Assembly: GCF_023712105.1 (NCBI RefSeq)
Contig: NZ_JAMLJI010000002.1
Location: forward strand, 62,001 to 126,000
Length of the DNA: 64,000 nucleotides
Direction: 5' to 3'
Source: Larsenimonas suaedae
Lineage (GTDB): Bacteria > Pseudomonadota > Gammaproteobacteria > Pseudomonadales > Halomonadaceae
Shown: positions 9,114-14,680 of the stretch, in pieces
Position numbering within the stretch: position 1 is the first letter of the stretch
Layout of the letters: each line of letters starts with the position of its first letter
The notes under the pieces: model-generated
What the model was told of the DNA's origin: nothing
What the model saw: only the letters and a program-made list of their open reading frames with translations
The model's database searches: none
Translations under genes and position numbers: made by a program

Positions 9114-11951
<2,838 letters not shown>

Positions 11952-11977
11952 TCAACTCGTTAGCGTATCCCTTCAAG

Positions 11978-12006
11978 CGGCTGCTTCATCAGGCAGCCGT
12001 TTTTTA
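11978..12006 (+). terminator. valS terminator
   Basis: CGGCTGC/GCAGCCG stem with an 8-base loop followed by seven T residues, 27 bases after the valS stop. Confidence 0.92.
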
Positions 12007-12135: not shown

Positions 12136-12849
12136 ATGAACCTGACCCGCATTCTCTGCCTCAATGCCCTGGGGGTATTGCTCATCTCGACCTGGTGGAT
12201 TCCACAGTTCACCTTCTGGTCAACCGTCGATGACAGCGTGTTCTGGTTTTTCAATCAGTTCATCACGATGGATAACCCGCATTGGAACGCAACGCTTGCC
12301 GCGCTCAACAACCGCAAGTTCGACCTGTTTGTCATTGCAGGCATGCTGACGATCATGAGCTGGGCGTGTGTACGAGATACCAGGGGCGGCTGGCGGCGCT
12401 GGCTCGGGATCGGTCTAACCATGGTGATCACGGCCGGGCTCATGAACGAAGTCGTTCGCCATCTGCCCTTTCATCACCCAAGCCCTACGCGATTTTTCGA
12501 TGACGCAAGCCTGGTGTCGAACTTCGTGCACTTCACCACCAAGGACAGCGCCGGCAACAGCTTCCCGGGCGATCACGGCGTGATGGCCATGATCTTTGCA
12601 GGCTTCATGCTGACCTTCGGCGACCGCCTCACGCGCGGGGCAAGCATCCTGCTGGTCGCGATTGCCATTGCCCCCAGGGTCATGGTCGGGGCGCATTGGG
12701 TCAGCGACATCATGGTCGGCTCGCTGTCACTGGCGCTGTTGCTGCTGCCCTGGGTGCTGTGTACACCCGTGGCACGGGCGCTAACCACCTGGATCAGCCG
12801 ACGACTGGGCCGACTGTTTCCCACGTCCACCAAGGGAGATCCCTCATGA
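12136..12849 (+). CDS. lpxT: PAP2-family lipid A phosphotransferase, LpxT-like, copy 1
   Basis: Inner-membrane phosphatase-type enzyme. E. coli LpxT moves the distal phosphate of undecaprenyl diphosphate onto lipid A, making the 1-diphosphate form on the periplasmic side. 237 residues, the same length as E. coli LpxT, and close to it in sequence style: WWIP near the N-terminus, FWFFNQ, NNRKFD, then the PAP2 motifs FTTKDSAGNSFPGDHG and APRVMVGAHWVSD with the catalytic histidines. Five to six hydrophobic helices. The stop overlaps the ATG of a second copy by four bases (ATGA), so the two are co-translated. An AT-rich stretch precedes it with TACAAT at 12096 as a possible -10. Confidence 0.88.
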   Translation: MNLTRILCLNALGVLLISTWWIPQFTFWSTVDDSVFWFFNQFITMDNPHWNATLAALNNRKFDLFVIAGMLTIMSWACVRDTRGGWRRWLGIGLTMVITAGLMNEVVRHLPFHHPSPTRFFDDASLVSNFVHFTTKDSAGNSFPGDHGVMAMIFAGFMLTFGDRLTRGASILLVAIAIAPRVMVGAHWVSDIMVGSLSLALLLLPWVLCTPVARALTTWISRRLGRLFPTSTKGDPS

Positions 12850-13547
12850 AACCGATGCACATTCTATTGCTCAATCTGATCGGTGCGGCCCTGTTTCTCA
12901 GCTGGTGGGCGCCGCATCTGACCCTCTGGCCGTGGCTCGACGACAGCGTCTTCTGGTTCTTCAACCAGTTCATCACGCCTGAGCACAACGATTGGACCAC
13001 GGTGCTGGCCATCCTCAACGCTCGCGCCTTTGACATGGTGGCACTTGGCATCATGGGGCTTTTGTTCGTTTTGGCGCTGCGACACGACACAGCGCCCAAC
13101 CGCCTGGTGAAGTGGGCAAGTATCGGGGTGGTGATGCTGTTGACCGGCGGGGTATTGGCACTTTTCACCAACGATGGCATCAGCTACAAGCACGCAAGCC
13201 CGACGCTCTTTTTCGAGCAGGCACGCCTTCTGACCGATGTGGTGTCGATTCCGACCAAGGACAGCGCACACAACAGCTTCCCGGGCGACCACGGTCTGAT
13301 GCTGATGGTTTTCGCTGCGTTCATGCTGAAGTTCGCAACGCCCCGGATCGGGGCCTTGAGTGCTGCACTGGTGGTGGTGTTGAGCGCCCCACGCATCATG
13401 GTCGGCGCGCACTGGTTCAGTGACGTCTATATGGGCTCGCTGTCGATCGCCCTGATCGCCCTGCCCTGGTGGCTCGGCACGCCGCTGGCCTCTCGACTGA
13501 TCGAGCGCATCAGCCGCCTGCTCGCCCGGTTTCGGCCCTACGGCTAG
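12846..13547 (+). CDS. lpxT: PAP2-family lipid A phosphotransferase, LpxT-like, copy 2
   Basis: Second LpxT-type membrane enzyme, 233 residues. It shares the whole architecture of its neighbour: LSWWAP, DDSVFWFFNQFIT, LNARAFD, the PAP2 motif SIPTKDSAHNSFPGDHG, and APRIMVGAHWFSDV with the second catalytic His and Asp. It is slightly nearer to E. coli LpxT in the KHASPTLFF and SIPTKD parts than copy 1. Start is ATG 12846 with GGGAG upstream; the longer upstream frame lies inside copy 1. The arrangement reads as a tandem duplication followed by divergence; the copies are not identical at the DNA level. Confidence 0.88.
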   Translation: MKPMHILLLNLIGAALFLSWWAPHLTLWPWLDDSVFWFFNQFITPEHNDWTTVLAILNARAFDMVALGIMGLLFVLALRHDTAPNRLVKWASIGVVMLLTGGVLALFTNDGISYKHASPTLFFEQARLLTDVVSIPTKDSAHNSFPGDHGLMLMVFAAFMLKFATPRIGALSAALVVVLSAPRIMVGAHWFSDVYMGSLSIALIALPWWLGTPLASRLIERISRLLARFRPYG

Positions 13548-13567: not shown

Positions 13568-14680
13568 TCATTCGGCATCGAGTGCCATGATGTCGCTTTC
13601 GCTCTCGGCGCCGACGACTCGATTGCGCCCACGCCGCTTGGCTTCGTAAAGACGGGCGTCGGCCTGTTCGATAATGGCGCCCAGCCCCGCCGTAACCTGA
13701 CGCGAACACGCCGTGCCGATGCTTGCCGTGACCTGGACGCTGACTCCCGGCTTGATGCGACACGGCGTCTTCTCAAGGCGTTGTCGAAGCCGCTCGGCAA
13801 TGAAATCGGCCCCATGCCCGTCGAGGTCCTGCAAAAGCACCAGAAACTCCTCCCCACCGACCCGGCCAATCGCATCGCCTTCACGAACGCTTTGGGTCAT
13901 TAGCCGCGCCAGGTGACGCAGTACATCGTCCCCACAGGCATGGCCGTAGGTGTCGTTGATCGACTTGAAATGATCCACATCGACCAGGAGCACCGCATAG
14001 GGCAGGCCCGAGCGCTGACACCGCTCCCCTTCGGCCATGACGCCACGGCGGTTGAGTACGTTGGTCAGTGAATCCCGGTTGGCACTGCGCTGATACATTC
14101 GCTCGAATCGAAGCGTGACCGCACTCAACCTGTAGAGCATGGCCGCCACTACGACACCACTGTTCAAAAGATTCAAAAGCCACAGGAATTGACGCTGATC
14201 GAAGCCAAGCGGTGCGATGGGTAACCAGTGCGTCAGCATGATGAACGTCCCGACCACAACCATCAAAAACCCACATGAGCACACGCTTTTGATAAAGAGC
14301 GGGAACTCGCTCATGAACAGCAACAGAATCGAGAGCAGCACCGCCACCATGAAGCCACTTTCGAGCCCGAAATGGAGCGTGGCAGCGGTCACATGACCTA
14401 AAAGCGCAGCAGGCAGCATCAGACACGCCACATCGACGTGACCACGCCGAAGACTCAGAAACGACAGTACGCTAACCAGCAGGCTTGCGCCGCCGCTGGC
14501 CGCCACCACCGGCTGCCCCAGCCAGGTATACACGGGAAGGAAAAACACGAGGTGGTCGACAATCAGAATCAGATGAAGCCATACGAAGACTTCGTAACTT
14601 CTGTTTTCTCGGGCGCTCAACGTACCGGGCGCGCGCATCAGCCACTGTTTGAACCCACCAGCGGCGCTTGAATCGTTCAT
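13568..14680 (-). CDS. Membrane-bound diguanylate cyclase
   Basis: Makes cyclic di-GMP from two GTP. 370 residues: about six membrane helices between residues 30 and 190 (HLILIVDHLVFFLPV, LMLPAALLGHV, FMVAVLLSILLLF and others), then a GGDEF domain. The active-site motif is GGEEF at 275-279, preceded five residues earlier by an intact RxxD product-inhibition site (R266-D269). DHFKSINDTYGH is the metal and guanine region. All key residues are present, so it should be active and feedback-inhibited. The N-terminal membrane part is not a sensor family I can name. It converges on the lpxT pair with 20 bases between stops. Confidence 0.93.
   Translation of the reverse strand: MNDSSAAGGFKQWLMRAPGTLSARENRSYEVFVWLHLILIVDHLVFFLPVYTWLGQPVVAASGGASLLVSVLSFLSLRRGHVDVACLMLPAALLGHVTAATLHFGLESGFMVAVLLSILLLFMSEFPLFIKSVCSCGFLMVVVGTFIMLTHWLPIAPLGFDQRQFLWLLNLLNSGVVVAAMLYRLSAVTLRFERMYQRSANRDSLTNVLNRRGVMAEGERCQRSGLPYAVLLVDVDHFKSINDTYGHACGDDVLRHLARLMTQSVREGDAIGRVGGEEFLVLLQDLDGHGADFIAERLRQRLEKTPCRIKPGVSVQVTASIGTACSRQVTAGLGAIIEQADARLYEAKRRGRNRVVGAESESDIMALDAE

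Follow-up and report, generated by a model that had tools for sequence, protein, structure and literature searches.

The window, that is, the whole stretch of 64,000 nucleotides of Larsenimonas suaedae DNA that was analysed, carries two overlapping genes of the LpxT type, here called lpxT-A and lpxT-B, which belong to two old and separate lineages and are both under purifying selection. The combination of lineages in this pair is different from that in every other pair we found. The reading that we prefer, tentatively and with somewhat less than even confidence, is that the two genes encode functional LpxT phosphotransferases, old paralogues that may have been kept together for differing acceptor preference; the donor and the lipid A acceptor would follow by analogy with E. 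coli, and the difference in acceptor would be suggested by the sequence comparisons described below.

Organization of the lpxT pair

The window genome is a Larsenimonas genome of 3.22 Mb in 8 contigs. In the window, two PAP2 genes lie on the + strand, to which all window coordinates given here refer, between valS (9114..11951) and a convergent GGDEF gene (13568-14680). The ORF of lpxT-A (12136..12849) starts with ATG and encodes a PAP2 protein of 237 aa, assigned to type 1 and lineage A1 as defined below, and lpxT-B (12846..13547), read from the ATG at 12846, encodes one of 233 aa, assigned to type 2 and lineage B, on the evidence of Pfam and the phylogenetic trees. The first-pass annotation had described a head-to-tail pair with a 4-base overlap, and this was confirmed: the stop codon of A and the start codon of B share the ATGA at 12846..12849, and the same spacing of -4 is present in three of three Larsenimonas genomes. 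A Shine-Dalgarno-like AAGGGAG (12832..12838), read from the sequence, lies within A, 7 nt before the ATG of B. The ORF listing also allowed an upstream TTG start that would give a B protein of 283 aa, and the ATG was preferred because the alignment of A with B and the relatives favour it.

Folding revealed, downstream of valS and ahead of the pair, a terminator-like hairpin with a T-run behind it (11975..12005; -18 kcal/mol, z -4.46), which is absent from the list produced by the consensus scan. Because this hairpin with its T-run follows valS, the two lpxT genes probably form a transcription unit of their own, and co-transcription with valS is unlikely. The consensus scan gave no promoter upstream of A.

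Assignment of both proteins to the LpxT family

A and B share 46% identity over 231 columns (E 2e-66), far above chance, and the common architecture that had been noted from the sequence holds for their length, their motifs and the order of their predicted helices. Both passed the Pfam PAP2 (PF01569) cut-off of 27.2 bits, A with 37.4 and B with 34.8. In the NCBIfam profile search, neither protein reached an equivalog cut-off, no LpxT model matched either of them at E<=0.1, and the best-scoring model, the YbjG-type equivalog NF008813, gave 44 bits for A and 27 for B against a cut-off of 229. With E. coli K-12 lpxT, pgpB and ybjG, taken by coordinates, as reference sequences, the identity to E. 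coli LpxT was 38% for A and 44% for B, and the matches to YbjG were marginal (E 4e-5 and 8e-4). For scale, E. coli LpxT is 24-29% identical over 212-242 columns to five presumed LpxT proteins of Pseudomonadaceae, and 36-38% identical over 80-83 columns to three others. The Pseudomonadaceae loci are those of family f21, which we take to be this family from neighbour genes recognised as Hsp33 and Hsp15.

A maximum-likelihood tree of 111 rows, rooted at the midpoint and with no LpxE or LpxF sequences among its rows, placed the 78 Halomonadaceae rows together (support 93/93). Together with the sequences of E. coli, Brenneria, Aeromonas and a delta MAG, they formed a clade of 83 rows (98/97), and other gammaproteobacterial and presumed Pseudomonas LpxT proteins occupied the next branches. 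PgpB, YbjG, the YbjG-like protein of the host genome and a host PAP2 protein of 181 aa fell outside the LpxT clade, so that a grouping of both copies with a non-LpxT PAP2 family, which would have contradicted the original assignment, was ruled out with respect to these four. This tree omits loci L073, L078 and L079, four of the 21 order-level loci (L155, L159, L161 and L163) and a second match of genome G789 for which there is no locus, and a fused protein of genome G109 was entered as two halves. The 83-row tree used below is the same set minus 28 outgroup or distant rows.

The equivalents of E. coli LpxT K139, H150, R184, H190 and D194 are invariant in all of the 99 LpxT rows, a count from which the long-branch sequence L148 was excluded. 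By alignment, the motif-2 histidine (H150 in E. coli) is His147 in A (12574..12576) and His149 in B (13290..13292), and H190, described as a conserved residue in the predicted active site of E. coli LpxT in the available part of PMC7356881, corresponds to His187 in A (12694..12696) and His189 in B (13410..13412). The LpxT identity of both copies is thus borne out by tree, identity and invariant residues.

The predicted models had a mean pLDDT of 84 for A and 78 for B. Sequence searches of solved structures returned weak matches only, the best PAP2 protein being YodM (5jki, E 0.17), and LpxE was absent from the matches of the profile search at E<=10. Neither model had a Foldseek match at E<=0.001, and YodM 5jki was again the best (E 0.020 for A and 0.0077 for B). 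Structural comparison by Z-score, which covered the A model, ranked acid phosphatase 7f17 first (Z 12.0; 4.1 A, 186 aligned), with YodM 5jki (Z 11.0; 4.6 A, 186 aligned), LpxE 6ebu (Z 10.5; 3.7 A, 159 aligned) and PgpB 5jwy (Z 9.4; 5.2 A, 184 aligned) among the other neighbours; these best neighbours of A are enzymes of the PAP2 type, and all of these Z values lie below about 13, which is weak for helical bundles.

Distribution and pairing in Halomonadaceae

LpxT-like proteins were found in 105 of 275 Halomonadaceae genomes at E<=1e-15, and 19 of these genomes hold two copies; relaxing the threshold to 1e-5 adds a faint, partial hit (E 8.9e-6) in genome G017. Loci were taken for all 105 genomes (60 loci of 59 genomes and 46 more). 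A single lpxT gene is present in the other 86. In 18 of the 19 two-copy genomes the copies are adjacent and on the strand of valS, which is the upstream neighbour of all 18 side-by-side pairs; in the remaining one, G032, they lie on two contigs. Seventeen of the pairs consist of separate genes, spaced by -4 nt in the three Larsenimonas genomes and by +10 to +72 nt in the 14 others. In G109, a one-contig genome, both types are joined beside valS in one uninterrupted ORF of 490 aa (L084, C1:446173-447645), whose N-terminal half belongs to lineage C and whose C-terminal half belongs to lineage B.

Two wider samples were also searched. An even sample at the level of the class had matches in 12 of 369 genomes, two of which are Halomonadaceae with pairs, including the window genome. 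In the order-level sample, which had matches in 28 of 390 genomes, only G789 outside Halomonadaceae had two, on different contigs.

Five lineages, two types and a diagnostic residue

The Halomonadaceae sequences fall into five lineages. A1, B, C and S were supported in both trees; D was a clade in the 111-row tree (94/95) and no clade in the 83-row tree, where its monophyly was not rejected (p 0.322). The 18 pairs comprise eight of C with D, six of C with B together with the fused gene of G109, and three of A1 with B, the last in Larsenimonas only. First place is always taken by C (15) or A1 (3) and second place always by B or D, and in all 19 two-copy genomes the two copies are of different lineages. 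We therefore group A1 with C as type 1, and B with D and S as type 2, the E. coli-like type; since the types were defined using the positions in the pairs, the finding that every pair combines both types follows in part from the definition and does not count as independent evidence. Two observations do not follow from it: the lineages never swap places, and the dispersed copies of G032, which are S and A1, likewise mix the types. As the only copy, type 1 occurs in 15 genomes (A1 in 9, C in 6) and type 2 in 71 (B in 22, D in 3, S in 46), with the lineage assigned by the tree or, for 46 of the 105 genomes, by the best BLAST hit of the tblastn stretch.

In the 83-row tree, forcing A1 and C into one clade cost 2.0 log units (p-AU 0.451), forcing B and D cost 3.4 (p-AU 0.324), and forcing B, D and S cost 3.5 (p 0.41). 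Ten alignment columns separate A1+C from the rest with a balanced accuracy above 0.9 when lineages are weighted equally, compared with five columns each for A1+S and B+D and at most three for the remainder of the other nine two-lineage unions, 7 to 20 for single lineages and 31 for the E. coli group of five rows; naming of the groups followed the tree and preceded the column count, which makes no correction for relatedness. Type 1 is thus a candidate group that ten alignment columns support and that the tree neither supports nor rejects.

One column, chosen out of 211, splits A1+C from the rest without overlap, and it is the only one to do so. In the numbering of A this is residue 151, which is Ala or Ser in 34 of 34 type-1 sequences, whereas all 118 other sequences carry Leu, Val, Met or Ile (152 rows, 211 columns, again without L148), a split that may reflect one or two ancestral changes. 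A carries the small residue, Ala151 (12586..12588), four residues after His147, and B the large one, Leu153 (13302..13304). In the predicted model of A, residue 151 lies at the start of a helix (147-161) and probably faces the same side as His147, close to the active site.

History of the pair at the valS locus

The check proposed in the first-pass annotation was a phylogeny of both copies, and it placed A and B in separate supported clades, each common to other genera, which indicates an old divergence. A tandem duplication within Larsenimonas was rejected on the same evidence. The picture of a plain tandem copy also proved too simple in another respect. A1 is found at valS in all three Larsenimonas genomes, and none of the 10 genomes that have A1 outside Larsenimonas has valS in the flanks taken, which mostly spanned some 3-4 kb, or less where a contig ended; 31 of 47 S-lineage loci likewise show no valS, for which a longer gap to valS is a possible explanation. 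Either an A1-type gene entered the first place in Larsenimonas, or A1 left that place elsewhere.

The content of the locus also varies within a genus. Of the nine genomes of genus g15, seven have D at the valS locus (C+D in six, D alone in one) and two have B there (C+B in G168, B alone in G170). The first copy of G168 groups with the first copies of g4, g10 and G109, as might result from replacement of the pair as a whole in G168.

Selection on both copies

Against genome G002, the dN/dS values were 0.085 for A, 0.018 for B and 0.043 for valS. Against G001, they were 0.16, 0.17 and 0.073, respectively, where dS was above 1 for both lpxT genes, so that these ratios are rough. Compared with L. 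salina CCM 8464, the B protein was 100% identical (rounded), with one nonsynonymous difference counted. We rejected the idea that one copy is dead or decaying, as dN/dS is low for both and the catalytic residues are intact.

Envelope genes of the host and surroundings of LpxT relatives

The host genome encodes BacA, a DUF368 translocase, a YbjG-like PAP2 protein (L002) and two Wzy_C proteins over the cut-off, and the pair would therefore not be needed for carrier recycling. No EptA_B_N match was obtained in the host genome. Two adjacent ArnT-like matches of partial length, 28% and 26% identical to E. coli ArnT, lie at C4:209071-211827. At L003 (C1:385471-385812 and around), an ORF of 486 aa has a C-terminal PAP2 match and an N-terminal half that looks DedA-like by eye.

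Among the 10 A1 loci away from valS, the A1 gene directly follows an O-antigen-ligase gene (PF04932) in three (G088, G095 and G099, at L133:1815-3895, L134 and L203), and no such ligase was seen in the other seven. The A1 proteins of these three genomes are close relatives; in G088 (L133) the ligase and lpxT genes overlap by ATGA, and the ligase of L203 was identified through its 80% identity to that of L133. A WaaL-type ligase would set C55-PP free on the side of the membrane on which LpxT acts, which fits a link through the donor.

More distant relatives adjoin other genes. At L072:671-2193 (G520), lpxT is immediately preceded by a BacA gene, with which it overlaps by 4 nt, and an M1 aminopeptidase gene lies downstream; L078 (G404) has seemingly similar neighbours and a part-length lpxT match in a frame of 110 aa, perhaps a remnant. 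A DedA-like gene (VTT domain) lies directly upstream of lpxT at L074:808-2229 (G622). At L073:1471-3168 (G389), an ORF of 565 aa joins an LpxT-type PAP2 domain (104-217), 34% identical to E. coli LpxT, to a DUF368 domain (272-515, E 1e-78), and a second genome of the same order contained only a fragment at a contig end.

Possible functions of the pair

Under the reading that we prefer, A and B would sit in the inner membrane as phosphotransferases whose active sites face the periplasm. Each enzyme would move the terminal phosphate of undecaprenyl pyrophosphate onto a phospho-lipid that has been exported, presumably lipid A, which would become lipid A diphosphate, and the transfer would recycle undecaprenyl phosphate. 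Type-1 A and type-2 B would be old paralogues whose co-translation and joint retention would stem from different acceptor preferences, for example if they distinguish the 1-phosphate of lipid A from the 4'-phosphate, or one form of lipid A from another. We infer the donor and the lipid A acceptor from E. coli LpxT, which, according to the available part of PMC2229476, takes phosphate from C55-PP and transfers it to Kdo2-lipid A, producing the 1-diphosphate. Different acceptors, which the first-pass annotation had also suggested, are plausible for A and B because the order of the lineages is fixed and a residue switches near the motif-2 histidine. Several points weigh against this reading. One old duplication without a new function would give the same pattern, 86 of the 105 genomes manage with one gene, and seven of the 10 non-valS A1 loci are without an O-antigen ligase. 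Two enzymes are also not needed for two sites, because P. aeruginosa LpxT alone adds phosphate at both 1 and 4' (PMC13142001, in the portion available) and its presumed relatives have the large residue. A bolder form of the proposal, which we consider rather doubtful, is that type-1 LpxT might be an undescribed lipid A kinase of Halomonadaceae with an acceptor of its own, for instance the 4'-phosphate or an O-antigen-bearing form of LPS; together with type 2 it would make up a two-site pyrophosphorylation module, fused in at least one species, in which the choice would be set near the residue four positions after the motif-2 histidine.

The main rival to a difference in acceptor, to which we give a smaller but appreciable chance, is that both enzymes have the same activity and are kept for its level or for different conditions, their divergence being mostly neutral after an old duplication. 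The identical catalytic residues of A and B agree with this, as does the fact that either type can stand alone (type 1 in 15 and type 2 in 71 of the 105 genomes), so that each presumably does the core job, and so does the turnover of gene content at the locus, as in genus g15 with D in some genomes and B in others. However, simple dosage accounts poorly for the complete split at residue 151, or for copies only 46% identical in a family where no two-copy genome holds two of one lineage. A further possibility is that A and B form one complex with two active sites, its stoichiometry set by co-translation. The 4-base overlap in Larsenimonas and the natural in-frame fusion of C and B halves in G109 speak for such a heteromer, and the fusion leaves room for the version raised in the first-pass annotation; yet this fusion occurs in one genome only and its single chain is predicted from the ORF, the other pairs are spaced by 10-72 nt, and one type occurs by itself in 86 of 105 genomes. 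As type 1 stands alone in 15 of them, an obligate heteromer is unlikely, and we hold the heteromer as a whole to be the least probable of the explanations considered.

Lastly, one copy or both might act mainly as an undecaprenyl pyrophosphate phosphatase in carrier recycling, with lipid A transfer lost or minor. E. coli membranes overexpressing LpxT had more C55-PP phosphatase activity, as cited in the available part of PMC2229476, and the distant LpxT-family relatives adjoin genes of the carrier cycle, as in the DUF368 fusion, the BacA neighbour of L072 and the DedA/VTT neighbour of L074. These neighbours, however, are those of distant relatives rather than of the valS locus, BacA and a YbjG-like PAP2 protein are already available in the host, and A and B are of the LpxT and not the YbjG sequence type, so that we regard this explanation as improbable.

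Two functional LpxT enzymes with different acceptors thus remain our preferred reading. In the literature searched, we found no lipid A structure for Larsenimonas, and a search for Halomonas lipid A diphosphate returned nothing relevant among the matches listed, judged by titles and the beginnings of abstracts. By the same parts of the records, no paper on LpxT with Halomonas was about the enzyme, and wording on LpxT homologues, paralogues or two LpxT proteins led to the 2007 E. coli paper only; in both searches subscription papers were mostly outside the range covered.

The pair bears on how a PAP2 scaffold chooses the position on lipid A, or between hydrolysis and transfer. Naturally adjacent LpxT enzymes of two types, told apart in full by a single residue close to the motif-2 histidine, offer a direct handle on this choice, and the pair may inform how halophiles tune the charge of their outer membrane. 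We regard the interest of the pair as moderate, the difference between A and B being testable by a few assays.

Comparison with known systems

A and B resemble E. coli LpxT (YeiU) in length and PAP2 type, lie in the same 83-row clade and have in common with it the motifs SP, K-D-[SA], SFPGDH and PR...GAHW..D. They differ from it in their setting, as lpxT of E. coli K-12 stands alone between yeiR and mepS, whereas Larsenimonas has two genes beside valS, and A differs in having Ala151 where E. coli LpxT has Leu154. P. aeruginosa LpxT (PA5194) belongs to the same family, and its presumed relatives in f21 share the invariant catalytic positions; they lie farther from A and B than does E. coli LpxT, are single in each of the 11 f21 genomes with a match, and have a large residue at the type-1 column in eight of eight cases.

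Fusions of PAP2 domains are also known. DedA-PAP2 and PAP2-DUF368 fusions were reported by Sit et al. 2022, and the available portion of that paper (PMC9876793) does not name the LpxT type for its PAP2-translocase fusions. What L073 would add to the known PAP2-DUF368 architecture, judging from its sequence, is a PAP2 domain that is LpxT-like. As far as that portion of the paper goes, its fusions, like L073, unite PAP2 with an undecaprenyl phosphate translocase, whereas the window pair and the G109 fusion bring PAP2 together with PAP2.
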